A stretch of DNA of 23,675 nucleotides from a virus. This document shows, piece after piece, positions 6,001 through 23,657 of this stretch. The notes under the pieces were generated by a model. The model did no database searches. It saw only the letters and a list, made by a program, of their open reading frames with translations, and was not told the origin of the DNA. Position numbers and translations under genes: made by a program. Numbering within the stretch: the stretch's first letter is position 1; every line of letters begins with the position of its first letter. The stretch is taken from positions 1-23,675 of IMG/VR virus record IMGVR_UViG_3300046371_000107; one strand, 5' to 3'.

Positions 6001-8470
6001 CTCCTGGAACAGATCCTACAACTCTCCTATCAAATTCAAGAGATGATTTTAAATGGTCAGTTGCTTGTCCTAGTGTAAATGTTTTTAACTGTTCGTTGAG
6101 AGGATTTTTTTCTAGCCCTGCTGGTATTTGATAGTAACCTTGATCAGGCTTAACTGCTGCAACTACTTTTACAGATAGTACATCATTTATACTAAATGTT
6201 CTATCAAACGTAAATTGATTTGCACTTCTAGTATATGTATTAGTAATATACTCGCCATTTAGATAAAAATTAATTAGTGCATCGCTTGGAAGTGTTTCCC
6301 AATCAACAGTATTAAATATTCCTATTGAATCTGCTGTATTAAATGTATACTGATCAATAATTGGCTGTATGTAAGTTTTATCAGTTGCTATCCAACCGTT
6401 AGCATATACTCCATTAATTTTATAGAATCCTGTGTTGGTGTTCTTGGTATATTGTTTTTGCAATAATGTGTAAACAAATTTTTCTGTTTCAAAACTCCAA
6501 TCAAATACAATATCACCTACGTTATTAATGTTTGCATATGTTAATGCAAATCCTAATTCTGTGTCTACAACACCACTACCAATCTTATAACCTAAAAGGT
6601 TACTACCTACAAAACTTGATACAGGATATGTAGTTTCGTTTGAAAATGCAACTCCTGTAGAATCATACAATTCAAATTTAGGTGCTTGGTTAGCACTAAT
6701 TTTTTCTTGACTACGTTTCCAAGTCGACCCGTCATAATGATACATCTTACCAGAGTTAACTGTACCTCGTCTTACTAATACGCCTTCGTTAAATGCTGAC
6801 AATGTATCAGTAGTTTCTTTTAAGTTAATTTGTGTTGTATTGTTGTGTCTTACAAACTTTACTTCATAAATTCTATTGTTTGCTAGACTATCTGTATCTG
6901 CAATAACTAAAACTCTTGCACCTTCAAACAAAAATTCGCCATCAATGTTATAACCTTGCGAACCTTCAATTTTAGAAAAGACATCATCTGTAAATGTATC
7001 TACATAGTCAACTGTTTGTTTTGCAACGCCACCGTGATTATATAATTGTATATCAGGAAGGAATTCAATAATAGGTCTTTTAGCTCTAGCTGACTCCAAC
7101 GAATCAAAGTCTTGATTTCTAAGTTTGTATGCTGACTCTAAAACAGTTCTGTGGAACCATCTATTATATCTGGACCACGGGTTTGAGTCTTGGCTGTTTC
7201 TAGAAATTGTAATATAATCTTTATTACCAGGATACTGTGACGCATCGTCAAAAGGCTGTGTATCAAATCCTTGATTGTCAAATAGTATATCAGGAGAGTC
7301 TGTGTCTAATGGCGGTGGTACTAAGTCAGCAAATCTAATTAATTTAATTTCACTTCCTACACCTTCAATTAACCACTGTCCTTCTGCATACTTAGACGGC
7401 TGTACTTGTCCTCTAAACTCTACAACTAAACCGTTTGTAAATTCAAGTCCATCTGCTGTTGTGTAATTTACTTTACCTACAATTTCTTTATCAACATCAA
7501 TAAAAGTATTTGTGTCAATATCCGCAATAATAAATCTTCCTAGTCTATTAGGAGTAACATCACTTTGATAATATAAAATATCTGGTGAGTTTTGTGGAAC
7601 TTTAAATGTAACTGTTCCTACTTTTGCGCCGTTACCTTCTACTCCATCATTGTATAGTAGTGATGCAAAGCCTGCATCATTTGAAACTAGTTTCCAATCT
7701 TGTGAATCAATTGTAATACTGCTTCCGTCTAACGGACTAGTTTCATTAACACACTTCCAAAGTTGTTTATCGAATACTGCTAGTTCTCCTGGAAAATATG
7801 CTTTGTTAGCATTAAATTCTAATGAACCTGTGTCGTAATTATTTCTAATATAGAAACCTTCTGCGGGAGAATTAATTTCAAATTTGTACTCTTGCCCTCT
7901 ATACAAAGTAATGTCGGGATTGTTAGTTACGCTATCTGGTGTAACTATCCAACTGTTTATTCCTGTTCCTACTTTATATGTACTTTGAATATTTGCTGCT
8001 TGTCCGTATACATCTATAGATGGTGGACCTCCAGGAATCCAATAGTATTCTCTATAGTTAACAAACTTGTCCCATATAATAGGTGGGTTCCAGCTGTAGT
8101 GTTCCTGCTCTGTAGTTTTATCATCTCTCTCATTAGCATTACCGAAAAATTCGATCATGCTTTTAAGATCAATATAATCTTTAAACTTTAAAATTTCTTG
8201 GTTTTCTTCAACCGTAACCGCTGGCTCAAGTTGATAGCGACTTCTTAGAGTTTGATCTGTATCAAGATAAACATCTTTACCAGTAAATGTTTTTCCGTAA
8301 CGCTTACCGATGTAACCTACAGTTTTATCAACAACACCTGGTTGAACTAGTGGATCAAGTACACCTGATAAAAATTTATCATTGGCTGGCGTTTGAAAGA
8401 CATTAGGTAGTAAGTCTTTACTTTTTCTAATAGGTATTTCACTGTTAGGAAACTTTTTGTTATCTGCCAT
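1..8470 (-). CDS. Giant baseplate/tail structural protein, partial (C-terminus beyond window)
   Basis: This frame is open from an ATG at 8470 to the left edge: 2,823 codons with no stop, so the protein is larger than that. It starts inside the gp6 stop (TAATG), with GGAGGT 11 nt upstream. In T4 the gene after gp6 is gp7 (1,032 residues), a baseplate wedge protein. The position suggests a wedge or peripheral baseplate role here, but I see no gp7 signature. Visible modules: segments resembling chitin-binding CBM5/12 domains (aromatics around 'GDxVxYxGxxYxA' and a late Trp) near residues 216-259, 1456-1501, 1716-1756, 2201-2243, 2336-2391 and 2458-2516; and FG-GAP-like propeller repeats ('RFGTSLAMNYDGTVLAVGAP' type) near residues 2165-2724. 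A Trp-rich conserved-looking stretch (HPWEMLGFSIKPSWWDTEYG) lies near nt 4945-5005. Together these suggest glycan or surface adhesion (inference). Late expression is expected from the operon. Confidence 0.85.
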   Translation of the reverse strand, partial: MADNKKFPNSEIPIRKSKDLLPNVFQTPANDKFLSGVLDPLVQPGVVDKTVGYIGKRYGKTFTGKDVYLDTDQTLRSRYQLEPAVTVEENQEILKFKDYIDLKSMIEFFGNANERDDKTTEQEHYSWNPPIIWDKFVNYREYYWIPGGPPSIDVYGQAANIQSTYKVGTGINSWIVTPDSVTNNPDITLYRGQEYKFEINSPAEGFYIRNNYDTGSLEFNANKAYFPGELAVFDKQLWKCVNETSPLDGSSITIDSQDWKLVSNDAGFASLLYNDGVEGNGAKVGTVTFKVPQNSPDILYYQSDVTPNRLGRFIIADIDTNTFIDVDKEIVGKVNYTTADGLEFTNGLVVEFRGQVQPSKYAEGQWLIEGVGSEIKLIRFADLVPPPLDTDSPDILFDNQGFDTQPFDDASQYPGNKDYITISRNSQDSNPWSRYNRWFHRTVLESAYKLRNQDFDSLESARAKRPIIEFLPDIQLYNHGGVAKQTVDYVDTFTDDVFSKIEGSQGYNIDGEFLFEGARVLVIADTDSLANNRIYEVKFVRHNNTTQINLKETTDTLSAFNEGVLVRRGTVNSGKMYHYDGSTWKRSQEKISANQAPKFELYDSTGVAFSNETTYPVSSFVGSNLLGYKIGSGVVDTELGFALTYANINNVGDIVFDWSFETEKFVYTLLQKQYTKNTNTGFYKINGVYANGWIATDKTYIQPIIDQYTFNTADSIGIFNTVDWETLPSDALINFYLNGEYITNTYTRSANQFTFDRTFSINDVLSVKVVAAVKPDQGYYQIPAGLEKNPLNEQLKTFTLGQATDHLKSSLEFDRRVVGSVPGVSNLRDVDGYQKNSTRFMKHSGFAAVSTLLVNDKDVNIVKSLRYAKKAYTIFKQNIIKKATEVDFNENTSDFLDNIIENITKTKTIESPFADTDMIGAGAFTKTEYVVDDPGIKNFTLNENFDLETLSRKAAYVYLNDVQLIVGKDYEVNGALGFITITGTLVPGDRIEIREYVSTAFSHVPPTPSSLGLYPKYEPIKYLDDTYRVPKNIIQGHDGSKTTAYDDYRDDLLLEFEKRIFNNIKQEYDPEIFDVQKALGGYYGNSTFTKEELDNVINQEFLSWVQNTNLGYTTNDYFVDTEPFTYTYSNMTDPTGKENLPGYWRGVYKHFYDTDRPHTHPWEMLGFSIKPSWWDTEYGVAPYTNGNLVLWEDIAQGKIAQGTRAGIYPRYARTTILNHIPCDCDGKLVDPLTSGLAGNFQLVNNRGPFKLGDDSPVENAWKTSSEYAFAVTTALALLKPFDYLILNFDRSVTKRNIINQLVNVTSDTFLTPTDLKFPVAGKTQVAGLAMYIASYIKSKGASVAEAQKNIDCINVRLSSRVSGFVDKQQQKYLLDSKNPSSASASVFIPPENYDIIFNVSSPISSVTYSGVIFEKTTQGWVVNGYDDINPYFNTFETFPQQKDPVISVAGTSEPFATWEKEKRFNNGGIVEYRGSFYRATQTFTSGETFDKSNLVQLPDLPVANAVTAQQRRNFNTFKVKKVSYGTEYNTIQDVVDFLLGYQAHLKSLGFNFANYDGTNQVVQDFVTASKEFMYWTVHNWAVGSVLSVSPGATNMDVKLAVGVADNLLDSFYDYSVLKADGSAIDPKFINVSRDFQNISISTTNTTEGIYLLKLNYVLKEHVVVFDDKTVFNDTIFDKATGYRQERIKAQGFRTTDWDGDYTSPGFLFDNVSFATWTPYYDYKLGDIVSYRAYKYTARGNHTSGEEFNDANWTQLDSEPEKQLIPNFDYRINQIEDYFDVASEGLGKSQRDLARHTVGYQSRTYLENLSEDPTTQFKLYQGFIREKGTPNAITKLFTKLGDNTSTAAVDLNEEWGFRLGQIGGVDQSERLEIRLDTDKFKLNPQPVLVEASAQDKVDRYYRVDSTNFEFGPTPFTTAINPVSYDSKPMLTPGYVAVGQTDFTVTNRDEILNLAIASVQDNNHIWVTFDGPSWTVLRANTVYDLKITNLESNDDNEVIFTFEKTHLLKVDDIFGIKTIAGLNQFWKVKAATTNTVTVQHTEKYDADQGFEPSTGAYPMLLTESRFTTYDDIDAEKLALLSDGAKLFVDSNVNSRWEVVEKKKQFTGKKIIDFGIIDPTSVGTKTVYSDTLKQVIVGIPDVARVGVYIQGATGLSSKQLLEPPTWLTTDVTGSFGLELALSPDSNWLMVGAHTASGIPSRYKGLFDVNANYIVNDIVLFSGRLYKAQDNINGDGSTIDVYSNEWVEVQKIEAEQDGSNTGGFETGVIFIYQYQSQQWNLHDIQVSPRTYDNERFGQKIAVSQASSTGPYYMSVSAPGSQDAKGRVYLYTYDTTDGWHLDYNKNYKGIYAADDSTFYPKDSIVFSNGDMWKALVDNVADGSSLTTGSNDWVLLDEVTTGASLPMSIATNDDGSTLDAGLLDDQQLTELIKVDDRFGTSLAMNYDGTVLAVGAPNSDGQYFTNYKGHWRPNYEYAQGDTVKYQGGYHQLQNLGPSAVGADSTIRSYNEAPDAGEPWVNVGDSTSVASGKVYIYKKNTAGVYRLLQQINADALPYLSDLDPSEVISSGDKFGYAIGLDYSGNTLVVTSPLADKNFQNQGSAYVFKFDTDSTEFAYRLKQKLTSYSDYPNEMFGQDISISSGTEIIAIGATNSPYVLQTRFDASQTSYDSNRTTFRDFDGFAGAVYVFEKKGTNEKFFLSEKIDEALSLNESFGFSLYATRNAIVVGSPNFISPAPHGVDIAFDGPKTGTVRLFEKTEGQNSLNIIGSQPQTVDIDKFKRISLYDTEDDTKILDLEIFDPAKMKLLSEAERELSYKVPYDPAIYTTGTA

Positions 8471-11400
8471 TAGTAACTAGAACCTCCGCTGCTAGAAGAA
8501 CTTGATGAACTAGAGCTGGATGAACTAGAACTGGATGAACTAGAACTGGATGAACTAGAACTGGATGAACTAGAACTGGATGAACTAGGACTGGATGAAC
8601 TAGATGTGGTATTTGCCGTTGAGCCAACTGTTATAGTTGTTGTGCTGGAACTAATTTCGGCAGCAGTAATACTTGCTACAATTTCAATATCATCAACAGT
8701 GGCACCACTAACAAAAATTTCGTCTGGTTTACTTTGTATTTCAAACAGGCTACCAAATGCCTGTGATGGCTGTCTTGGCAATATAACAAAATTTGATATA
8801 TCAGGCGAAACTACATTTAGTATGTAAGTTGAAAGTTCGCTTAGATAGAATCTATCTCCAAAGTCCCAGTTATTAACATCAAAGAACTGATTCATTGCTG
8901 TTATGATTCTTACTTTTAAATCATTATTGTTAAGATTTCTTGTAGGATTTTTAACTACTTTAAACTGAGCTTGTACCTTAGTATCAGCAGTACTGCCAAA
9001 CAACACTTTGTACTTCACAGGATGGTAAACAACTTCATCACTGATCGACTTAATAGCGTTTAGTCCTGTACCAAACGTTACCCTAAGTTCGTCATTTGTC
9101 GGTGCAGTCGGCTCTGTTGTACGAGCACCTGCTAGAAAATTTCTAAATTCTGTATCATAAGATCTAGTTAGAAGGTAAAGGTCAATAATGTTTGTTACAC
9201 TAGGATCAATTCTTCTATCTTCGCTGGCTGAATGTGTGTATTGAAACTTAATATTGTCTCTACCAATATTTGCTCTGTATGTAGGATCTAATATAAGTGT
9301 ATTAGTTGTACTGTCAACACGTTTAACTCTGTTTTCTGCACTATCATAAAAGTATATTAACTGCCCATCTGTATAATTGTTAACATTAACCAATGATTCT
9401 TTTTCAATTACTAAGATAGGAGTTACTGCTGGGTCAACTAAGTTGAATACTGTCGTACCATAATTATCTTTCTCTGATTTAAAGAAAAGAAATTTTAAAT
9501 CAAGATCTTCACCGACAACATTAACAAATGACTCTGGATTGTCAATAACACCGTCTTGATCAGAATCTCTAAATCCTAATCTAATTTCTTTTGTACTTTC
9601 ATAACCGTCGTCAAACTTGATTACATCTGCAACTTCAAATGGATAATCTCGTACTAAAGATCCTGTGCCAACATTTTTAGAATTAATACCTAAAACATTT
9701 ACAACATCTTTTTCAACCTTACCTGTTAAACTGTTATATGCTTTTTCATTTTTATCAAAGTAAAATCTATTTTGCTTTTTACTACCAAACACATAGTTAA
9801 GTGTACGTGTTCGTACAATATATTGATCGTTGTCTTTTACAAATGCCATAATCCAAGAACTATCTAGGTTATTATTTGTTACGTCACCTGATTTACCTAA
9901 ACTAAATGGTGAAGTTAAGTCTAAGTTTTGATTTTGAATAATTTTCCAACTAGAATCTGTATCATCGTATCTCAACCCAAAGTTTAAATTTGCAAAGGCT
10001 TGATTAACCATTGACGATTCAAGTGCATCTGAAAGATCTGTTACAAACTTAGGAACAATTCTTGAAGCAACTGCATCTGAAGGTACATTATCATTAAACA
10101 CAATAGGTCCAATGCCTTTTGCATTGGCTCCTGTGCCTGCGTTTGTTCCGTCACCTGCAACACTAATAACTTTTGTCCAGATAAAATCCGTTGCACCAGC
10201 ATGATCAGCAGCGCCATTCATAAGTGTTCCGTCAGGCATGAAGTGCTTGCCTTCTGGTGCAACAAATTTAACATTTGCTCCTGCTGTAATGTACTTTAAG
10301 TTATTAGTAGAATACGTGCCTACTTTAAGTAGCGATAAATCAACTTTGTTTTTAAAATAACCAGTACCTTGATTAATACCGTTTGTAGACGCATTCCATA
10401 CAATATTATCGCTTGTAAATAAAATGCTGTCGTATTTTGTAAAGTAAAAATTGTATACATCTGTTTCTGTAAAGACACCTTCTACTTTTTGTTTAATAAA
10501 GTTAATAATGTCTGATCTGTTTGTAAATTTAAAAGCAAGTGACTTTTCATCTTCTTCTTTATACATATAACCGTCTGTACCAAATACATTAACAGAACTA
10601 TATTTTCCACTTGCATCAATAAGATCAAAGTTACGTGATAAACCACTTGATGTTCTATTTGATGCTTTTACTTTTAAAATGTTTTGTGATGTTGATAGAG
10701 GTGCAAGATTATAATCTTCACCAGTAATCATTCTATTTTGTGTGTAATAATTTGCAGGTGCATTCTTTTTAATAGATGCAACTGACTCTGTAGGAGTTGC
10801 TGTTGCAACAGTTGACTGTAACGCCATTCCAATTGTTAATGTATGTGCAATGCCTGCTTGGTTAATATACTCAACTGAGATATTAACGTTTTTCATTTCA
10901 CTAGGTGAAATCGTATAACTTAATCCATTACTAATTCTATAATAAGTTCTAAAAGAACCTTTAGGTAAGTTACCATACACACCGTCAGCAAAAGTTAAAT
11001 CAATCATATCGGTTTGTTTAGTTTCTACACCGTAAATATTTCTGATATCTCCAGTCAAGCTATTGTAAGCAATATTGTTTCCTGTAAGGCTTGATACTTT
11101 TGTCCACTCTTGAGCTTGGCTTCCGTTTGCAAGTAATTCAAACAACCAAACGTCATCGTTGTTAATTCCTTTTGCATCAACTGCAACTTTTTCATTTGTT
11201 GATGGCGCATCAATTGTAAAGTCTGCTAACTCCAAAGAACCTTGTTTGAAGTGCATAAAAAATCCTGTATTAGGACTTGCTGGACCTTTGTTGTCCTGTC
11301 TGTAAAGAAATCCTAGTTGGTTACCAGGTGTAGGTGCTTCCTCGTAAATCTCTTCTGCACCTTTGAATGTTGTACTTAAAATTTCAAACACCATTTGTCT

Positions 11401-12021
11401 ACCTGCAACAGTTTTTGAAAAAGTAAACATTGGCACATCAGTACTAGCAGTTCTAAATCTATATTGTTCTGTTGGAATGCTTTGAATAACATCTGTTCCT
11501 TGGCTTCTACCAAACTTTGTGTTATCAGACATAGCAGCATCAAGAAGCAAAACAAACTGTTCTGCCCAGTTTGTATTAGTTGGATCGTTCCATTTAATTG
11601 TTTGACTTGCTAGGTTACGTCCATTACTGTCAAGTAACTGTTCTGTAGTTGAAACTGATGTAAATTTAAGTAAGCCTTTTGCTGGCATGTTACGCTTTGC
11701 ATTGTAACTAAGCATTTTAGCAATACGTAGTACACTTTCTTTACGCTCAGCAAGTTCAATAAAGTTTTCTCTACTTGCTAAATCAATACGGAAGGATAAA
11801 CTTTGTCCTAGAAAAGCAATAGCATCAATTAGTGCAAGGTACTCTGAGCTTTCAATATAATCGTTAAAATCTTCTGGATAGTTTTCTCTTAGATAGGTGA
11901 TGATCACACGTCTTAGATTCTCAAAATCATAAGATTTGAAATCAGCATTAGCGAAAGTCTGGTATATACGTGTCCAGTCTTCGTTAAGTAATAAATTATT
12001 TTGTCTTGACGTTGTGCTCAT
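8470..12021 (-). CDS. 6: Baseplate wedge protein gp6, with C-terminal serine tail
   Basis: 1,183 residues, against 660 for T4 gp6. gp6 forms the inner ring that joins baseplate wedges to each other. The N-terminus (residues about 33-117, 'YLRENYPEDFNDYIESSEYL' followed by 'SRENFIELAERKESVLRIAK') is the typical gp6 start. The conserved end, around residues 1031-1100 ('MNQFFDVNNWDFGDRFYLSE'), resembles Baseplate_J/gp6 C-termini. Oddities: an acidic loop D819-x-D821-x-D823-G-x-x-D827 typical of calcium sites, and a C-terminal tail of about 50 residues that is almost all serine, encoded by 15-nt tandem repeats and ending GGSSY. The start ATG has AGGAA six nt upstream. The stop overlaps the start of the giant downstream gene by one base. 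The 41-nt gap upstream is the only intergenic space in the operon after gp48. Confidence 0.9.
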   Translation of the reverse strand: MSTTSRQNNLLLNEDWTRIYQTFANADFKSYDFENLRRVIITYLRENYPEDFNDYIESSEYLALIDAIAFLGQSLSFRIDLASRENFIELAERKESVLRIAKMLSYNAKRNMPAKGLLKFTSVSTTEQLLDSNGRNLASQTIKWNDPTNTNWAEQFVLLLDAAMSDNTKFGRSQGTDVIQSIPTEQYRFRTASTDVPMFTFSKTVAGRQMVFEILSTTFKGAEEIYEEAPTPGNQLGFLYRQDNKGPASPNTGFFMHFKQGSLELADFTIDAPSTNEKVAVDAKGINNDDVWLFELLANGSQAQEWTKVSSLTGNNIAYNSLTGDIRNIYGVETKQTDMIDLTFADGVYGNLPKGSFRTYYRISNGLSYTISPSEMKNVNISVEYINQAGIAHTLTIGMALQSTVATATPTESVASIKKNAPANYYTQNRMITGEDYNLAPLSTSQNILKVKASNRTSSGLSRNFDLIDASGKYSSVNVFGTDGYMYKEEDEKSLAFKFTNRSDIINFIKQKVEGVFTETDVYNFYFTKYDSILFTSDNIVWNASTNGINQGTGYFKNKVDLSLLKVGTYSTNNLKYITAGANVKFVAPEGKHFMPDGTLMNGAADHAGATDFIWTKVISVAGDGTNAGTGANAKGIGPIVFNDNVPSDAVASRIVPKFVTDLSDALESSMVNQAFANLNFGLRYDDTDSSWKIIQNQNLDLTSPFSLGKSGDVTNNNLDSSWIMAFVKDNDQYIVRTRTLNYVFGSKKQNRFYFDKNEKAYNSLTGKVEKDVVNVLGINSKNVGTGSLVRDYPFEVADVIKFDDGYESTKEIRLGFRDSDQDGVIDNPESFVNVVGEDLDLKFLFFKSEKDNYGTTVFNLVDPAVTPILVIEKESLVNVNNYTDGQLIYFYDSAENRVKRVDSTTNTLILDPTYRANIGRDNIKFQYTHSASEDRRIDPSVTNIIDLYLLTRSYDTEFRNFLAGARTTEPTAPTNDELRVTFGTGLNAIKSISDEVVYHPVKYKVLFGSTADTKVQAQFKVVKNPTRNLNNNDLKVRIITAMNQFFDVNNWDFGDRFYLSELSTYILNVVSPDISNFVILPRQPSQAFGSLFEIQSKPDEIFVSGATVDDIEIVASITAAEISSSTTTITVGSTANTTSSSSSPSSSSSSSSSSSSSSSSSSSSSSSSSSSSSSSSSGGSSY
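8501..8605. repeat. 15-nt tandem repeat, seven copies, coding for polyserine
   Basis: Seven consecutive 15-nt units (plus-strand ctggatgaactagaa). The four units from 8516 to 8575 are identical and the outer ones carry single changes (cttgatg..., ...agg..., ...gat). Each unit encodes five serines on the minus strand, using AGT, TCA, TCC, AGT and TCT. Because the period is a multiple of three, slippage or recombination would lengthen or shorten the gp6 serine tail without breaking the frame. One unit (8576-8590) has a base change that gives the single proline in the tract. Confidence 0.95.
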
Positions 12022-18704: not shown

Positions 18705-19541
18705 ATGACAATTGGGCAACCAAAAAAGATAAAATATCTAACAAATAAGGATTTATTAGCGGAAATACACCGCAGTAAAGCCACTTTCTGTTCCTACACT
18801 GACGATAGCTATGGTCAGTACGATATTATACTGCCATCACTAGAAAAAGTTAACATTAGAACCGTAGCTGAAGCAAAACGTAACCGTGCTGCTAGGCTAT
18901 CTAAACTTGCACATGCTGAAGCAGTTGAAGCCGCAGGTAAAAAGATGCCTGCAAAAGGTTTTGAAATAGACTATCGTAAAATGCAAAAAGAAGATTTAGT
19001 TTTCAGAATTATGACATTTGATCATGTTCCGTTAGAGCCTGGTCGTAAAAAGACTGTTAAGACTGTAGCAGATGCACATGAGAAAGTAAACTTTCCGCCA
19101 TTCCAACATTGGAAGTTTGATGACAAAGGAAACCTAATTTGTGTAGGTAAAAGTCATTGGGTAGGAGGTATGGAGAATGGATACTTTGATAAAAAATGTG
19201 GACAAATGACAAACGACCTTGCAAGAATGTTTATGAAGTTGTGTGATAGATATGCAACTAGAGGTAATGTTAGAGGATACACATATAATGACGAAATGAA
19301 AGGACAGGCTATACTACAATTAGCACAGATTGGTTTACAATTTGATGAATCAAAAAGTAACAATCCATTTGCTTATTATACTGCGGCTGTAACAAATAGT
19401 TTTGTTAGAATTATTAATATTGAAAAACGCAATCAAAACATTAGAGATGACATTTTAGAAATGAATGGTATGAATCCAAGTTGGACAAGACAAAATGCTG
19501 ATTCACATCCTAGTAAACCCAAAGAAAAGAAAAAGACTTGA
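18705..19541 (+). CDS. 55: Late-transcription sigma factor gp55 with long N-terminal extension
   Basis: 278 residues (T4 gp55: 185). gp55 is the phage sigma factor that directs host RNA polymerase to late promoters such as the one facing the other way next door. The sigma region 2-like core is in the C-terminal part, about residues 164-250: 'MTNDLARMFMKLCDRYATR', then 'GYTYNDEMKGQAILQLAQIG', 'NNPFAYYTAAVTNSFVRIIN' and 'IEKRNQNIRDDILEMNG', close to the T4 pattern ('SSNPFAYFTQ'). The first 160 residues are an extra region with an Ala/Lys-rich helix (about 53-82) and 'FPPFQHWKFDDKGNLICVGK'. The C-terminus is basic (KPKEKKKT) and lacks the hydrophobic/acidic sliding-clamp-binding end of T4 gp55. 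GGAGA lies about nine nt before the ATG. Confidence 0.88.
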   Translation: MTIGQPKKIKYLTNKDLLAEIHRSKATFCSYTDDSYGQYDIILPSLEKVNIRTVAEAKRNRAARLSKLAHAEAVEAAGKKMPAKGFEIDYRKMQKEDLVFRIMTFDHVPLEPGRKKTVKTVADAHEKVNFPPFQHWKFDDKGNLICVGKSHWVGGMENGYFDKKCGQMTNDLARMFMKLCDRYATRGNVRGYTYNDEMKGQAILQLAQIGLQFDESKSNNPFAYYTAAVTNSFVRIINIEKRNQNIRDDILEMNGMNPSWTRQNADSHPSKPKEKKKT

Positions 19542-19582: not shown

Positions 19583-20605
19583 ATGCCGTTATTTAAGAAA
19601 GCAGCCTGCTTCACTGATATACACTTTGGTATGAAAGGTGGAAGTAGAACGCATAACATGGACTGCGAGGAATTCGTAAAGTGGTTTTGTGACGAAGCAA
19701 AAGCCGCTGGTGCTGAAACTTGCATATTTTTAGGAGACTGGCATCATAACCGTGCGACTACAGATGTTAGCACGATGAACTATACAGTTTCTAATTTAGA
19801 AAGAATTAACGAAACATTCGAAAAGACTTACTTTATGGTAGGTAATCATGATTTGTTTTATAAAGACAAACGTGAAATTAACTCTATTGAGTTTATGAGA
19901 TTGTTTCCTAACATCATTCCTATTACAGATGTTTTCACAGAAGGCGAAGTAACATTGTTACCTTGGCTAGTAGGTGAAGAATGGAAGATGGTTCCTAAGA
20001 TCAAAAGTAGATATGTTTTTGGTCATTTTGAACTTCCACTGTTTTACATGAATGCTATGGTACAGATGCCTGATCACGGAACACTACAAGCTGATCATTT
20101 TGTAAATCAAGAATATGTTTTTAGTGGACACTTCCACAAAAGACAAACCAAAGGTAATGTAACATATATTGGTAATGCATTTCCACACAACTATGCAGAT
20201 GCATGGGACGATGAACGTGGTATGATGTTTTTAGATTGGGGTGGAACTCCTGAATACAAAACATGGCCTAAACAACCAGTGTTTAGAACATTTAAACTTA
20301 GTCAACTACTTGAAGATCCTGATAAAAACTTAGGCGAAAATATGCATTGTCGTGTTACTATCGATGTGCCTATTAGTTTTGAAGAAGCAAACTTTATTAG
20401 AGAAACTTTTATTCCACAATACAAACTTAGAGAACTAAGCCTTATTCCAGAAAAGGTAGAGATAGAATCAAATGTTGATCCTATTGACCTTACATTCGAA
20501 AGTGTTGATACAATTGTTATGAATCAGATTGAAGCAATTGATAGTGATACTATTGACAAACGTATGCTAGTAGAGATATATAGGGACCTCGGACGTAATC
20601 AATGA
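19583..20605 (+). CDS. 47: Recombination nuclease subunit gp47 (Mre11/SbcD-like)
   Basis: 340 residues, essentially the T4 length (339). With gp46 it forms the Mre11-Rad50-type complex that resects DNA ends for recombination-dependent replication and helps degrade host DNA. All metallophosphoesterase motifs are present in order: D12-I-H14, G51-D52-W-H-H, G87-N-H-D90, G147-H148-F-E and G182-H-F-H185-K-R. The C-terminal part after about residue 235 would be the capping and gp46-binding region. AAGGAG is five nt before the ATG. The last four bases (ATGA) overlap the gp46 start, so the two subunits are translationally coupled. Confidence 0.95.
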   Translation: MPLFKKAACFTDIHFGMKGGSRTHNMDCEEFVKWFCDEAKAAGAETCIFLGDWHHNRATTDVSTMNYTVSNLERINETFEKTYFMVGNHDLFYKDKREINSIEFMRLFPNIIPITDVFTEGEVTLLPWLVGEEWKMVPKIKSRYVFGHFELPLFYMNAMVQMPDHGTLQADHFVNQEYVFSGHFHKRQTKGNVTYIGNAFPHNYADAWDDERGMMFLDWGGTPEYKTWPKQPVFRTFKLSQLLEDPDKNLGENMHCRVTIDVPISFEEANFIRETFIPQYKLRELSLIPEKVEIESNVDPIDLTFESVDTIVMNQIEAIDSDTIDKRMLVEIYRDLGRNQ

Positions 20606-22377
20606 TAAAAATTAAAGATGTAACTGTAAAGAATTTTATGAGTGTGGGTAACCAGACTCAAGCAATTAACTTTGACAAAGGTGAACTTACTCTTGTGCTA
20701 GGTGAAAATCTAGACTTAGGTGGTGACGATAGTGGTTCCAGAAACGGCACTGGTAAAACTACTATCGTCAACGCAATTAGCTACGCAATATATGGCAATG
20801 CACTAACAAACATCAAACGTGATAATCTTATTAACAAGATTAACGGTAAAGGAATGCTTGTTACAATTAACTTTGAAAAAGACGGTATTGACTATAAGAT
20901 TGAACGTGGTCGAAAGCCTAATATTACAAAGTTTACAATTAATGGCAAGGACTTTGAAGAAGACTCTGATGAGAGTCAAGGTGATAGTAGAGAAACACAA
21001 AAAGTAATTGAAGAACTATTTGGTATGTCGCATGATATGTTTAAGCATCTTATTGCATTAAACACATACACTGAGCCTTTCCTTGCATTAAAGAATAATG
21101 ATCAACGAGCAATCATTGAACAGTTGTTAGGTATTACACTATTATCTGAAAAAGCCGAATGTCTCAAAGAAGAGATGAAGATTAATAGAGATGCAATGAG
21201 CTCTGAAAATACAAGAATTGAAACTGTTAAAATATCTAACGAAAAGATTCAACAAAATATCGAATCATTAGAACGCAAACAGCGTATGTGGGAAGATCAA
21301 AAGACAACCGCTTCTAGTGAACTTGAGTCAAGTATTAAGATATTACAAGAAATTGATATTGAATCAGAGATTGAAGCACATAAATGTTTAGATGATTTTA
21401 ATAAAAAGCAATCTTTAATATCAGAAGCAAGACGTTGGATTGCTAACATTGAAGCAGATGATTCTAAACAAGAAAAACTGATTGAAAAATTAGATAGCGA
21501 AATTGTTTTACTTAAAGAACACAAGTGTCATACATGTGGACAAGATCTGCATGATAAAAAGCAAGAAGAAATTCTTAATGCTAAGGAACAGCAAAAGCAA
21601 GAAGCGTCTGAACAGATTGTTAATAACAACAAACAACTAGAAGAACATCAAACTGTTATTGCAGACATTGGCGAGCTAGAAGGCTGTCCGCCTACACAAT
21701 ATGATACACTAGAACAAGCATTACAACATAGAAGTACTGTTGAAGGTTTAGAAAAAGATTTACAAGCAAAGAAAGATGATGTTAATCCTTACAGTGAACA
21801 AATTACAGAACTAAAAGATACTGCAATACAAGAAGTAAGTTTTGATTTACTTAATGAACTAACAAAAGTAAAAGATCATCAGGATTTCTTATACAAACTA
21901 TTAACAAACAAAGACAGTTTTGTTCGTAAGAAAATTATTGAGCAAAATCTTGCATACCTAAATCAGCGTATCACATACTACTTGGCAAAGATTGGTTTGC
22001 CACACATTGTTGAATTCCAGAACGACTTAACTGTTGTAATTACACAGCTAGGACAAGACTTAGACTTTGATAATTTAAGCAGGGGTGAACGTAATAGACT
22101 TATTTTATCTATGAGTTGGGCATTCCGTGATGTTTGGGAGAGCTTATATCACAGTATTAACTTGCTGTTCATAGATGAACTAGTAGATAGTGGTATGGAC
22201 AGTGCTGGAGTAGAATCTAGCATTGGTATTCTTAAGAAAATGACTAGAGAAAGACAGAAAAATGTATTCTTGATCAGTCATAGAGATGATTTAACAAGTC
22301 GTGTTAATCATGTACTAAAAGTAATTAAAGAAAACGGTTTTACATCTTACAGCAACGATGTTGAAATTGTGGAATAG
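20602..22377 (+). CDS. 46: Recombination nuclease ATPase subunit gp46 (Rad50/SbcC-like)
   Basis: 591 residues (T4 gp46: 560). ABC-type ATPase partner of gp47. Walker A is GSRNGTGKTT at 45-54, preceded by an Asp/Gly-rich insertion (LDLGGDDS). Coiled-coil arms run from about 185 to 300 and 315 to 400. The zinc hook C309-H-T-C312 lies at their tip. The signature LSRGE is at 492-496, Walker B LLFIDE at 521-526, and the switch His is H560 (LISHRDD). All catalytic elements look intact, so the complex should be active. The start overlaps the gp47 stop by 4 nt and its own ribosome site is weak, consistent with coupling. Confidence 0.95.
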   Translation: MIKIKDVTVKNFMSVGNQTQAINFDKGELTLVLGENLDLGGDDSGSRNGTGKTTIVNAISYAIYGNALTNIKRDNLINKINGKGMLVTINFEKDGIDYKIERGRKPNITKFTINGKDFEEDSDESQGDSRETQKVIEELFGMSHDMFKHLIALNTYTEPFLALKNNDQRAIIEQLLGITLLSEKAECLKEEMKINRDAMSSENTRIETVKISNEKIQQNIESLERKQRMWEDQKTTASSELESSIKILQEIDIESEIEAHKCLDDFNKKQSLISEARRWIANIEADDSKQEKLIEKLDSEIVLLKEHKCHTCGQDLHDKKQEEILNAKEQQKQEASEQIVNNNKQLEEHQTVIADIGELEGCPPTQYDTLEQALQHRSTVEGLEKDLQAKKDDVNPYSEQITELKDTAIQEVSFDLLNELTKVKDHQDFLYKLLTNKDSFVRKKIIEQNLAYLNQRITYYLAKIGLPHIVEFQNDLTVVITQLGQDLDFDNLSRGERNRLILSMSWAFRDVWESLYHSINLLFIDELVDSGMDSAGVESSIGILKKMTRERQKNVFLISHRDDLTSRVNHVLKVIKENGFTSYSNDVEIVE

Positions 22378-22379
22378 GT

Positions 22380-22649
22380 ATGGCAACAGATTCACATGAC
22401 CAAATGATTGAAGCGTTTCAAAAATACTTTAAGTGGCAAGAACGCTTTGAGTATCATGGTAGTGATGAAGCAGGAATTAAGGCAAGATTTTGGCTGAGTG
22501 AAATTAGAAAACATGCAAGTCAACGAAGGCTAGAAGTACAAGAAAAACGATCAGAGAGAAAATTAGCCAGAAAGGGCCAGGTCGGACGTCCAAAGAAAGT
22601 AACTACTAATGATGACGTCAGAATGGACCTACCAGAAGAAGAAGATTAA
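22380..22649 (+). CDS. Small basic protein with AT-hook-like motif, unknown function
   Basis: 89 residues, starting two bases after the gp46 stop in the same operon, with GGAA six nt before the ATG. Residues 1-50 look helical ('DQMIEAFQKYFKWQERFEYH', then 'ARFWLSEIRKHASQRRLE'). Next come a highly basic stretch (EKRSERKLARKGQ) and GRPKK at 69-73, which resembles the core of an AT-hook, and then an acidic tail (DLPEEED). A small protein of this shape downstream of gp46 occurs in marine T4-like phages as I recall them, but no function is known to me. Nucleic-acid binding is inference from the basic motif. Confidence 0.75.
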   Translation: MATDSHDQMIEAFQKYFKWQERFEYHGSDEAGIKARFWLSEIRKHASQRRLEVQEKRSERKLARKGQVGRPKKVTTNDDVRMDLPEEED

Positions 22650-23049
22650 AGAACTTCCAGAAGATTGCGAAGGGTTCGTCTACCTGATTACAAATATCAC
22701 TAACGACAGAAAATACATAGGCAAGAAACTAGCAAAATTTAAAAAAACACGCCCGCCACTCAAGGGCAGAAAAAATAAAAGACGTTCAAAAGTAGAAAGT
22801 GACTGGAGAGACTATTGGGGATCCAGTGAGCATTTACTAGCAGATGTAGAAGAGTTAGGCAAAAACAAATTCACAAGAGAAATAATACATTATTGTCCAA
22901 GCAGAGGCGTACTTAGTTACTTAGAGGCTAAAGAACAGTTTGATCGTAGAGTACTAGAATCAGACGAATACTACAATGGCATAATCAACGTAAGAGTAGG
23001 CAGTTCTAAAGTGTTAAAAGAAGAATTAAAACGATTAAATGAGTCTTAA
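22609..23049 (+). CDS. GIY-YIG nuclease-domain protein (Seg-like)
   Basis: 146 residues. The GIY-YIG signature is visible as G22-F-V-Y25 and Y36-I-G38-K-K. Downstream come 'SDWRDYWGSSEHL' (65-75) and 'SYLEAKEQF' (103-111), whose Glu could be the metal ligand. GIY-YIG proteins of T4-like phages include the Seg homing endonucleases. This one is the short single-domain kind, without a recognisable DNA-binding tail, so it may be a stand-alone phage nuclease rather than a mobile element. The start chosen (tandem ATGs at 22609 and 22612) overlaps the upstream gene by 41 nt in another frame. It has only a weak ribosome site, but 'EWTYQKKKIKELPEDCEGFV' looks like a genuine lead-in to the domain. Confidence 0.8.
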   Translation: MMTSEWTYQKKKIKELPEDCEGFVYLITNITNDRKYIGKKLAKFKKTRPPLKGRKNKRRSKVESDWRDYWGSSEHLLADVEELGKNKFTREIIHYCPSRGVLSYLEAKEQFDRRVLESDEYYNGIINVRVGSSKVLKEELKRLNES

Positions 23050-23056
23050 TTTACAT

Positions 23057-23085
23057 TTTATACAGAACCACAACTAATACATAAT
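23057..23085 (+). promoter_or_regulatory. Possible promoter for the right-end noncoding RNA
   Basis: TTTATA at 23057-23062, a 17-nt spacer and CATAAT at 23080-23085 resemble a sigma-70 promoter (4/6 and 5/6). Transcription would begin near 23092, just ahead of the structured stretch. In AT-rich DNA such matches are common, so this is tentative. Confidence 0.35.
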
Positions 23086-23434
23086 ATATCCCTAGGCAAA
23101 TATACACCGTTAAATAAGCCCGCCACGGCGCTATCATGTGGTCCTAAGTCCGTTCTGATGTGTGACGGTAAGGAATTCTGGTTAACGGCAGAGGTATAAC
23201 AGCACTATCCTTAACAGGACGCTGATCGGATACGCCTAAGCAGAACCGATTTGCTGTATATTAATAGAAGTAATTTAAATAGGCTAAATGAGCGAGTAAT
23301 TCTCGCAGGTTTATTATATAAGTTAGCGTTTGTATAGTAAACTGCCGTTGTACATAAGATACTAAGACGGATTGAGTAGGTAACGGATAACCGCCTACGC
23401 TATGTAATTTAAGATACATTGTAGATCTAACGCT

Positions 23435-23528
23435 ATTGTGACTGTGCGAACTCAGATAATGTTCAAAACACACCTTTGGCCCCGACAACGGGCTAATTGT
23501 GACCATACAATCTAGATAATGCTAAAAC
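23435..23528 (+). repeat. Imperfect direct duplication inside the noncoding region
   Basis: 23435-23469 and 23496-23528 share the order ATTGTGAC, then variable bases, then AGATAATG, then AAAAC. The variable parts differ in sequence but each supports a hairpin (GAAC/GTTC in the first copy, ATTGT/ACAAT in the second). The CCCG-ACAA-CGGG hairpin lies between them. Confidence 0.5.
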
Positions 23529-23621
23529 TGCTTCGCAGTTAATAGTTAAAATAATTTTAACACTTGAATACTTTCGCATAAGTAATAGCGAAGCAAGTGC
23601 GTTGAGCGATAGCGAAAACGC

Positions 23622-23644
23622 AGAACAGCTTTAGCTGTTCTTTA
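23622..23644 (+). terminator. Hairpin terminator at end of the noncoding region
   Basis: A perfect 8-bp stem AGAACAGC / GCTGTTCT (23622-23629, 23634-23641) with a TTTA loop, followed by TT and an A/T-rich run. The U-tract is short, so efficiency may be moderate. It separates the right-end noncoding region from the next gene, whose late-promoter-like element begins at its edge. Confidence 0.6.
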
Positions 23645-23657
23645 AATAAATACATAT
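23645..23657 (+). promoter_or_regulatory. Late-promoter-like element for the next plus-strand gene
   Basis: AATAAATACATAT resembles the T4 late consensus TATAAATACTATT (ATAAATAC exact). It sits directly behind the terminator hairpin. ATGs follow at 23658 and 23667 without a clear ribosome site, so the start of the downstream gene cannot be fixed within the window. Confidence 0.5.

Follow-up and report, generated by a model that had tools for sequence, protein, structure and literature searches.

A probable full-length Polynucleobacter-1 RNA with twin identical loops at the end of a T4-like phage gene cluster

The window analysed here, which is the whole stretch of 23,675 bases of the virus record IMGVR_UViG_3300046371_000107, carries T4-like genes and contains a region that is best explained as a single structured noncoding RNA about 440 nt long. 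It is rather probable that this RNA represents Polynucleobacter-1 (RF01718) at full length and acts in trans by means of two identical loops. The conserved structure, the fixed genomic place and the twin loops are shown at the level of sequence comparison. What has been curated as an RNA family, with no function assigned to it, turns out to be a fragment. The extent of the RNA, its pseudoknot, its loop-loop contact and its twin loops offer a way towards its function, the loops marking a candidate partner site. The RNA is widespread in uncultured viral contigs, where at least 271 distinct cores passed a profile filter. The Polynucleobacter-1 motif dates from 2010 (Weinberg et al., PMC2864571) and occupies one table row in the main text of that paper, whose Table 1 assigns it to Burkholderiales and to fresh water and estuary, with “y” for cis-regulatory and “?” for switch. 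Among open-licence PMC papers “Polynucleobacter-1” occurred in one only, and no title or abstract beginning among those listed pointed to the extended RNA. Relative to these sources, the RF01718 5′ domain was known, while the full extent, the pseudoknot, the loop-loop contact, the phage locus and the twin loops are new.

The preliminary description of the window, made from its letters, had reported positions 23050-23645 as a structured region free of genes. This observation is confirmed, and the interpretation given to it is partly supported. The sole listed ORF of at least 40 aa inside the region is an 81-aa frame on the minus strand (23261-23506), and the folding of the region beats 20 of 20 dinucleotide shuffles (z −2.66). 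A coding gene was considered and rejected, as there is no notable ORF and the substitutions follow the structure; the longest ORF within the RNA region measures 20-79 aa in 230 of 252 relative sequences. The GC content of about 49% claimed for the first 150 nt is nearly reached at 23110-23259 (48%), but literally the first 150 nt, 23050-23199, have 40.7%, the value for the window being 35%. Promoter-like elements, one of which was thought to precede the region, occur at chance level (three found, 3.3 expected). The terminator hairpin suggested for the other end does exist as a strong 3′ hairpin, but its U tract is weak and a terminator scan did not flag it; the fold of 23590-23650 has a z of −2.75, with 2 of 200 shuffles equally good. 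The scan flagged P9 instead, an internal hairpin of the RNA. The improved bounds place the RNA from 23104 to about 23545, followed by hairpins to about 23645 (Table 1).

Table 1. Genes, RNA domains and structural elements of the window that bear on the RNA
Feature	Positions	Strand	Basis
Late sigma factor, T4 gp55-like, first gene of the cluster	18705-19541	+	PHROG 12791, E 1.9e-77
gp47 (SbcD-like) recombination nuclease subunit	19583-20605	+	PHROG 100, E 7e-64
gp46 (SbcC-like) recombination nuclease subunit	20602-22377	+	PHROG 77, E 5e-105
Hypothetical 89-aa protein	22380-22649	+	No Pfam or PHROG match at E ≤0.001
SegE-type GIY-YIG endonuclease, upstream of the RNA	22609-23049	+	Pfam PF19835, E 4e-35
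RNA stretch in the 76-sequence covariation alignment (RNA proper about 23104-23545)	23104-23560	+	Alignment A1
RF01718 (Polynucleobacter-1) domain, model 1-141 of 141	23117-23261	+	60.2 bits, gathering score 37
Helix P1, closes the 5′ domain (23107-23113/23182-23188)	23107-23188	+	Complementary in the window; covaries in relatives
Helix P5 (23199-23204/23252-23257), encloses P6 and P7	23199-23257	+	Two-sided changes in 5/6 pairs, 97.4% paired
P9, internal hairpin	23292-23306		Flagged by terminator scan
Hairpin P10, outside the Rfam model, loop carries PK1	23309-23342	+	Two-sided changes in 10/10 pairs, 86.2% paired
Pseudoknot PK1, P10 loop with the segment after P12	23323-23436	+	Two-sided changes in 7/7 pairs, 98.6% paired
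PK2, loop-loop pairing (23349-23351/23387-23389)	23349-23389	+	Two-sided changes in 3/3 pairs, 98.2% paired
Twin hairpin 1, stem GAAC/GUUC, loop AGAUAAU at 23454-23460	23448-23464	+	Window letters
Helix H3, between the twin loops	23475-23497	+	Two-sided changes in 2/8 pairs, 83% paired
Twin loop 2, AGAUAAU, identical to loop 1	23514-23520	+	Window letters
Hairpin AACUGC-UUC-GCAGUU, closes the core	23526-23540	+	Window letters; covaries in relatives (helices 16 and 17)
Probable 3′ end hairpin of the transcript	23622-23641	+	Fold; weak U tract

The RNA sits at the 3′ end of a cluster with the order gp55-gp47-gp46-(hypothetical)-GIY-YIG. The best named relatives of the gp46 of the window belong to jumbo phages, with less than 50% identity, and the best named match is the gp46 of Sinorhizobium phage Phosso. 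The PHROG family nearest to the GIY-YIG protein, phrog_447, is named “NAD synthetase”, and the same name stands on many phage records; since Pfam identifies a SegE GIY-YIG endonuclease, this is probably a misannotation that has spread. Elsewhere in the window, a minus-strand ORF (8470-12021) has a terminal long serine run (8470-8627). No tRNA or tmRNA was found in the window.

It had been stated that the region bears no recognisable family signature. This is wrong for the first third of the RNA, since the Rfam search gives a match to the whole RF01718 model there. Over model positions 1-141 the RNA of the window is the same as Polynucleobacter-1, scoring above the gathering score and keeping the 5′ helices with compensatory changes; it differs in being a phage RNA that ends a gene cluster, whereas the row in PMC2864571 lists a probably cis-regulatory motif of Burkholderiales. 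In the search of the window region against all of Rfam, RF01718 was the sole match at E ≤1, with no GOLLD, ROOL, group I or group II intron among the results, and the region proved to be neither a decayed gene nor a known intron. An Rfam search of 20 relatives gave one snoRNA match, which was far below its threshold.

The Rfam model spans only the first third of the RNA, and about 290 nt more lie beyond it, including P9, P10, PK1, PK2, H3 and the twin loops. With the GIY-YIG protein as a query, at least 80 related viral loci were collected, and RF01718 was present in 6 of 80 records among the matches listed. The seven sequences having an RF01718 domain (the window included) align far beyond the end of the Rfam model, and a profile made from them finds the 3′ part in 24 further loci. 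The cores that passed the profile filter come from pattern scans of viral contigs; weaker cores outside the filter looked genuine by eye, and 17 of them were added. A profile of the RF01718 region, built from the same seven sequences and applied at E ≤1e-3, is matched by 77 of the 264 cores with enough upstream sequence, among the matches listed. All 77 have AGAURAU loops, while the remaining 187 have no RF01718-region match, which indicates that the conserved 3′ domain follows 5′ domains of different kinds. At the GIY-YIG loci the 3′ domain likewise occurs mostly without the RF01718 domain. Judging by the alignments, the 5′ domain is exchanged between phage groups and the 3′ domain is conserved. 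A blastn search with the RNA of the window and three relatives against 50,697 phage records gave no match, nor did R1, a covariance model of the core whose only pairs are seven in H3, when it was run with stricter filters on 11 named phage records (Melnitz, PA5oct and Atu_ph07 among them).

The proposal of a dedicated structured RNA is borne out by covariation in relatives. The comparison of homologous intergenic regions behind the GIY-YIG gene, which had been recommended in the preliminary description, used MAFFT and counted pairs in place of R-scape; its outcome was strongly positive. Alignment A1 comprises 76 of the 77 profile-positive full-length relatives, one without its start having been left out. 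Its structure has 77 pairs in 17 helices, and 91.1% of the cells are standard pairs. Two-sided changes occur in 53 of the 77 pairs and amount to 853 cells, compared with 269 on average in 500 shuffles and 94-170 when the structure is slid by 1 to 3 columns. The structure was drawn from the same sequences and the slid controls thus favour it; the two-sided changes are the stronger evidence for it. In helices 2, 3 and 5 of A1, which belong to the 5′ domain, 96.8-99.8% of the cells are paired and 14 of 17 pairs show two-sided changes. Helix P1 begins before the Rfam match and is partly misaligned in A1 (77% paired), and H3 is partly misaligned as well.

Two longer-range pairings of 7 bp noticed earlier in the window may be P1 and PK1, both of which are complementary. 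The alignment columns of PK1 correspond to 23323-23329/23430-23436, while the window itself pairs 23324-23330 with 23429-23435, and base 23330 also stands at the foot of the P10 loop. The match of R1 in the window extends over 23446-23547. In one relative (L114, 8260-8603) the RNA lacks the first loop and H3 but has the 5′ part and the second loop, a defect that may be a natural deletion or an assembly fault. In relatives of the GCAUGAU loop class (L009, L018, L020, L024 and others) a hairpin CATAACTTCGTTATG replaces TGCTTCGCA on the 3′ side of the second loop.

The place of the RNA is fixed. At E ≤1, R1 matches 57 of 80 GIY-YIG loci, among the matches listed, always in the sense orientation and on the downstream side of the gene. 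Among the loci with at least 500 nt downstream it matches 57 of 71 and misses 14, again among the matches listed, and its weakest matches (L055, L056, L075 and L077, E 0.13 to 0.39) lean on position as much as on score. Among the matches listed, 225 loci extend more than 1200 nt upstream of the 3′ domain, and in 210 of them a GIY-YIG gene on the same strand ends less than 1200 nt before it. At five of the 16 exceptions listed this place is taken by a related nuclease-like gene, and the two of these that were tested (L390 and L305) are PDDEXK_15/RusA-like. Measured from the GIY-YIG stop codon, the start of helix P1 lies between −11 and +67 nt in 73 profile-positive loci, and between −11 and +17 nt in 65 of these; the RNA of the window starts 57 nt past this codon, which ends at 23049. 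Nineteen larger contigs gave a match at E ≤0.1; in 18 of them the core was found a single time, and the 19th has a weak second match.

Both 7-nt loops are identical in 53 of 58 aligned cores (the window included), among the matches listed. The 58 loci were chosen by the GIY-YIG gene and not by loop sequence; several are near-duplicates, many are close kin, and at least eight (the window, L011, L014, L016, L028, L036, L044 and L049) are also in the training alignment of R1. Four of the other five cores (L055, L056, L075 and L077) have the same six letters in both loops, shifted in the alignment, and at the phage locus L021 the loops differ by one letter. The three positions preceding the loops are identical in only 0, 0 and 2 of the 58 cores, and the position following them in 44. 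As the loops contribute to the score of R1, the 14 loci that it missed could include RNAs whose loops differ. In a set of 117 cores obtained with patterns leaving loop 1 free, the full heptamer agrees in 116 (the core with differing loops is L187) and the two strongly variable positions agree in all 117; this set is without L114 and without eight cores too near the contig end. In a larger set, partly biased by the patterns, the strongest mutual-information pairs include the identity pairs between loop 1 and loop 2. The second loop position of both motifs was fixed as G in one pattern and as C in another, and the larger sets are therefore biased there. Alignment A2 consists of 78 of 123 representatives, 22 of the 100 listed having been removed by hand, including the defective L114. 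On a tree of one of the pattern-biased larger sets, built without the loop columns, loop 1 has 22 changes and loop 2 also 22, against 23 joint ones; few independent changes fall on supported branches (4, 5 and 2 concordant, 0 discordant, 1 unchanged), and none is significant at p 0.05.

Eight loop sequences occur in phages, AGAUAAU, AGAUGAU, ACAUGAU, ACAUGAA, GCAUGAU, AUAUGAU, UGUGAA and GGUGAA, and there are thirteen in phages and bacteria together. Pairing of the loops in cis was considered and rejected, since no conserved cis complement was found. Six-letter complements within RNAs of the same class were found in at most 6 of 100 (AGATAAT), 2 of 35 (AGATGAT), 1 of 44 (ACATGAT) and 0 of 77 (ACATGAA); the exception is TCATAT, present in 2 of 2 ATATGAT RNAs, a word that is common elsewhere too. 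The five-letter TCATG occurs in 3 of 121 RNAs with ACATGAT or ACATGAA loops versus 30 of 135 with AGATRAT loops, and other five-letter complements are common everywhere, for example ATTAT in 47 of 100 AGATAAT RNAs. As no cis complement is kept, the loops are presumably exposed. In the neighbouring phage sequence of four classes the loop complements show no class-specific enrichment, so that a protein or a distant RNA is as likely a partner as a nearby RNA.

The same architecture is found in bacteria. In one genus, probably Polynucleobacter, RF01718 is above the cut-off in 19 of 186 genomes, with 24 copies of 70-104 bits; it is above the cut-off in 2 of 200 genomes of the family and in none of 398 genomes of the phylum. 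The same 3′ continuation follows RF01718 in all 23 bacterial copies that are intact at the 3′ end. The H3-type hairpin and both loop motifs are present in these 23, the 24th (L515) being cut by a contig end. The loops are identical in 20 of 23 copies (AGCGAAA in 13, AACAAAA in 2, AUCAAAA in 2, AGAGAAA in 2 and GGAGAAA in 1); in L501 they differ by one letter and in L509 and L514 by two. One genome (G1109) has two copies with different codes, each internally identical (L499 AGAGAAA, L512 AGCGAAA); this coexistence counts against a single, fixed host partner and favours one that the element carries. A PK1-like pairing of at least 7 bp is listed for all 24 copies, not always at the expected place and as a count without a chance control, so that only the pairs at the expected place count as support (for example GCCACUUA with UAAGUGGU, and a changed pair in L496). 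L492, the single copy whose neighbourhood was read, has a gene with a phage-integrase domain on either side. R1 misses the bacterial RF01718 copies (at most 14 bits in L492 and L493) and found nothing in 398 genomes of the phylum; being blind to these copies, it shows little by its misses elsewhere.

A role in trans, the binding of a partner, was among the functions considered in the preliminary description, and it is the best reading of these data: the loops change together, the positions preceding them do not, and no complement is conserved, which points to action in trans. The RNA starts near the stop codon of the last cluster gene and is therefore probably made as the 3′ end of the gp55-gp47-gp46-nuclease transcript, which the hairpin at 23622-23641 would end. 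It folds into the 5′ domain and a 3′ domain with the pseudoknot, the loop-loop contact and a core in which the twin loops flank a helix. The twin loops would present the same recognition sequence to a single kind of partner, in two copies or as a symmetric dimer, and this partner, a protein or an RNA, would travel with the mobile element and set the loop sequence. If the loops do form a co-inherited recognition code, we know of no parallel to this mode of recognition in other large bacterial RNAs. A more far-reaching and rather unlikely version describes a mobile-element RNA that carries a short recognition code twice, on two hairpin loops of a pseudoknotted scaffold. As the code varies by element and both copies of it are identical, each element would have its own specificity, and two RNAs with different codes could share one genome. 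The boldest form, a dual-loop specificity RNA for a recombination enzyme, is suggested by the DNA nuclease and recombinase genes beside the phage copies and L492.

An assembly of RNA only, a homo-oligomer like GOLLD or ROOL in which the twin loops are subunit contacts, is unlikely. According to PMC12286853, GOLLD is a large phage or prophage RNA with a conserved 3′ region and a less conserved 5′ region, and ROOL and OLE are large ornate RNAs of bacteria and phages whose function is unsettled. The RNA of the window is likewise large, ornate, phage-borne and pseudoknotted, with a conserved 3′ and a variable 5′ part. However, it is smaller than GOLLD and lies in a window without tRNA genes, and the window region has no match to GOLLD, ROOL or OLE at E ≤1. 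In a search of 22 records the GOLLD model (RF02032) had no match at the RNA, one match above the cut-off (in Phosso) and one weak match elsewhere (G469, 13.8 bits). The loops, besides, are identical and not complementary, with a self-complementary stretch in some classes only, so that in general they cannot pair with one another. The GOLLD RNA of the 469-kb Phosso record (L487) is at 33533-34001 with 186.6 bits, and R1 finds nothing there.

The RNA could also be a scaffold or guide of the neighbouring GIY-YIG enzyme, or of the nuclease standing in its place, in the manner of omega-RNAs, which are RNA partners of the IscB and TnpB nucleases. Like HEARO and the TnpB RNAs, it is a noncoding RNA adjoining a mobile-element nuclease gene, and its start at the stop codon of a GIY-YIG gene that is present in most loci, the nuclease-like genes in five of the exceptions and the integrase-type neighbours of L492 are consistent with such a partnership. 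Nevertheless, this reading is quite unlikely. The RNA has no Rfam match to an omega-RNA and shows no evidence of a guide; the loop complements are not enriched in the nearby DNA; close relatives of the GIY-YIG enzyme occur where R1 detected no RNA, at the 14 missed loci and in the Melnitz record, in which the relative stands beside nrd genes; and no GIY-YIG was found among the seven ORFs of at least 90 aa around L492.

The entry in Table 1 of PMC2864571 would suggest a cis-regulatory 5′ leader, for example a riboswitch, of the downstream gene, and in 137 of 172 loci the first downstream ORF of at least 150 aa indeed shares the strand of the RNA. This explanation is improbable, since in the other 35 of 172 loci that ORF is on the opposite strand, the RNA adjoins the stop codon of the upstream gene, the proteins encoded downstream vary between phage loci, and an unsystematic look revealed no switch-like alternative pairing with the start region. 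The position next to the stop codon, together with the downstream strand counts, makes the RNA look 3′ untranslated or co-transcribed and not like the leader of a particular gene. The twin motifs are short direct repeats close together, but it is very improbable that gene conversion or recent duplication, rather than a common partner, has made them identical, because the identity is confined to about 7-8 nt, the preceding positions differ, and it persists over thirteen loop sequences in phages and bacteria.

A further pair of stretches was found in alphaproteobacterial sequence (L290, 4590-5020, and L291, 205-640 on the minus strand). No Rfam match above threshold was obtained at this site, and the R1 scores are weak (34 bits for L290, 23 bits for L291); a search of 385 genomes of the class matched none but the one from which the stretches come. 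The pattern scan that includes them is estimated to give a few chance matches, and three of its five matches look like chance matches in coding sequence. The stretch of L291 lies near two resolvase genes. The two stretches align with each other over about 430 nt and have the same layout of loop, hairpin and loop; they are possibly distant relatives of the RNA, a lead that is kept apart from the counts given above.
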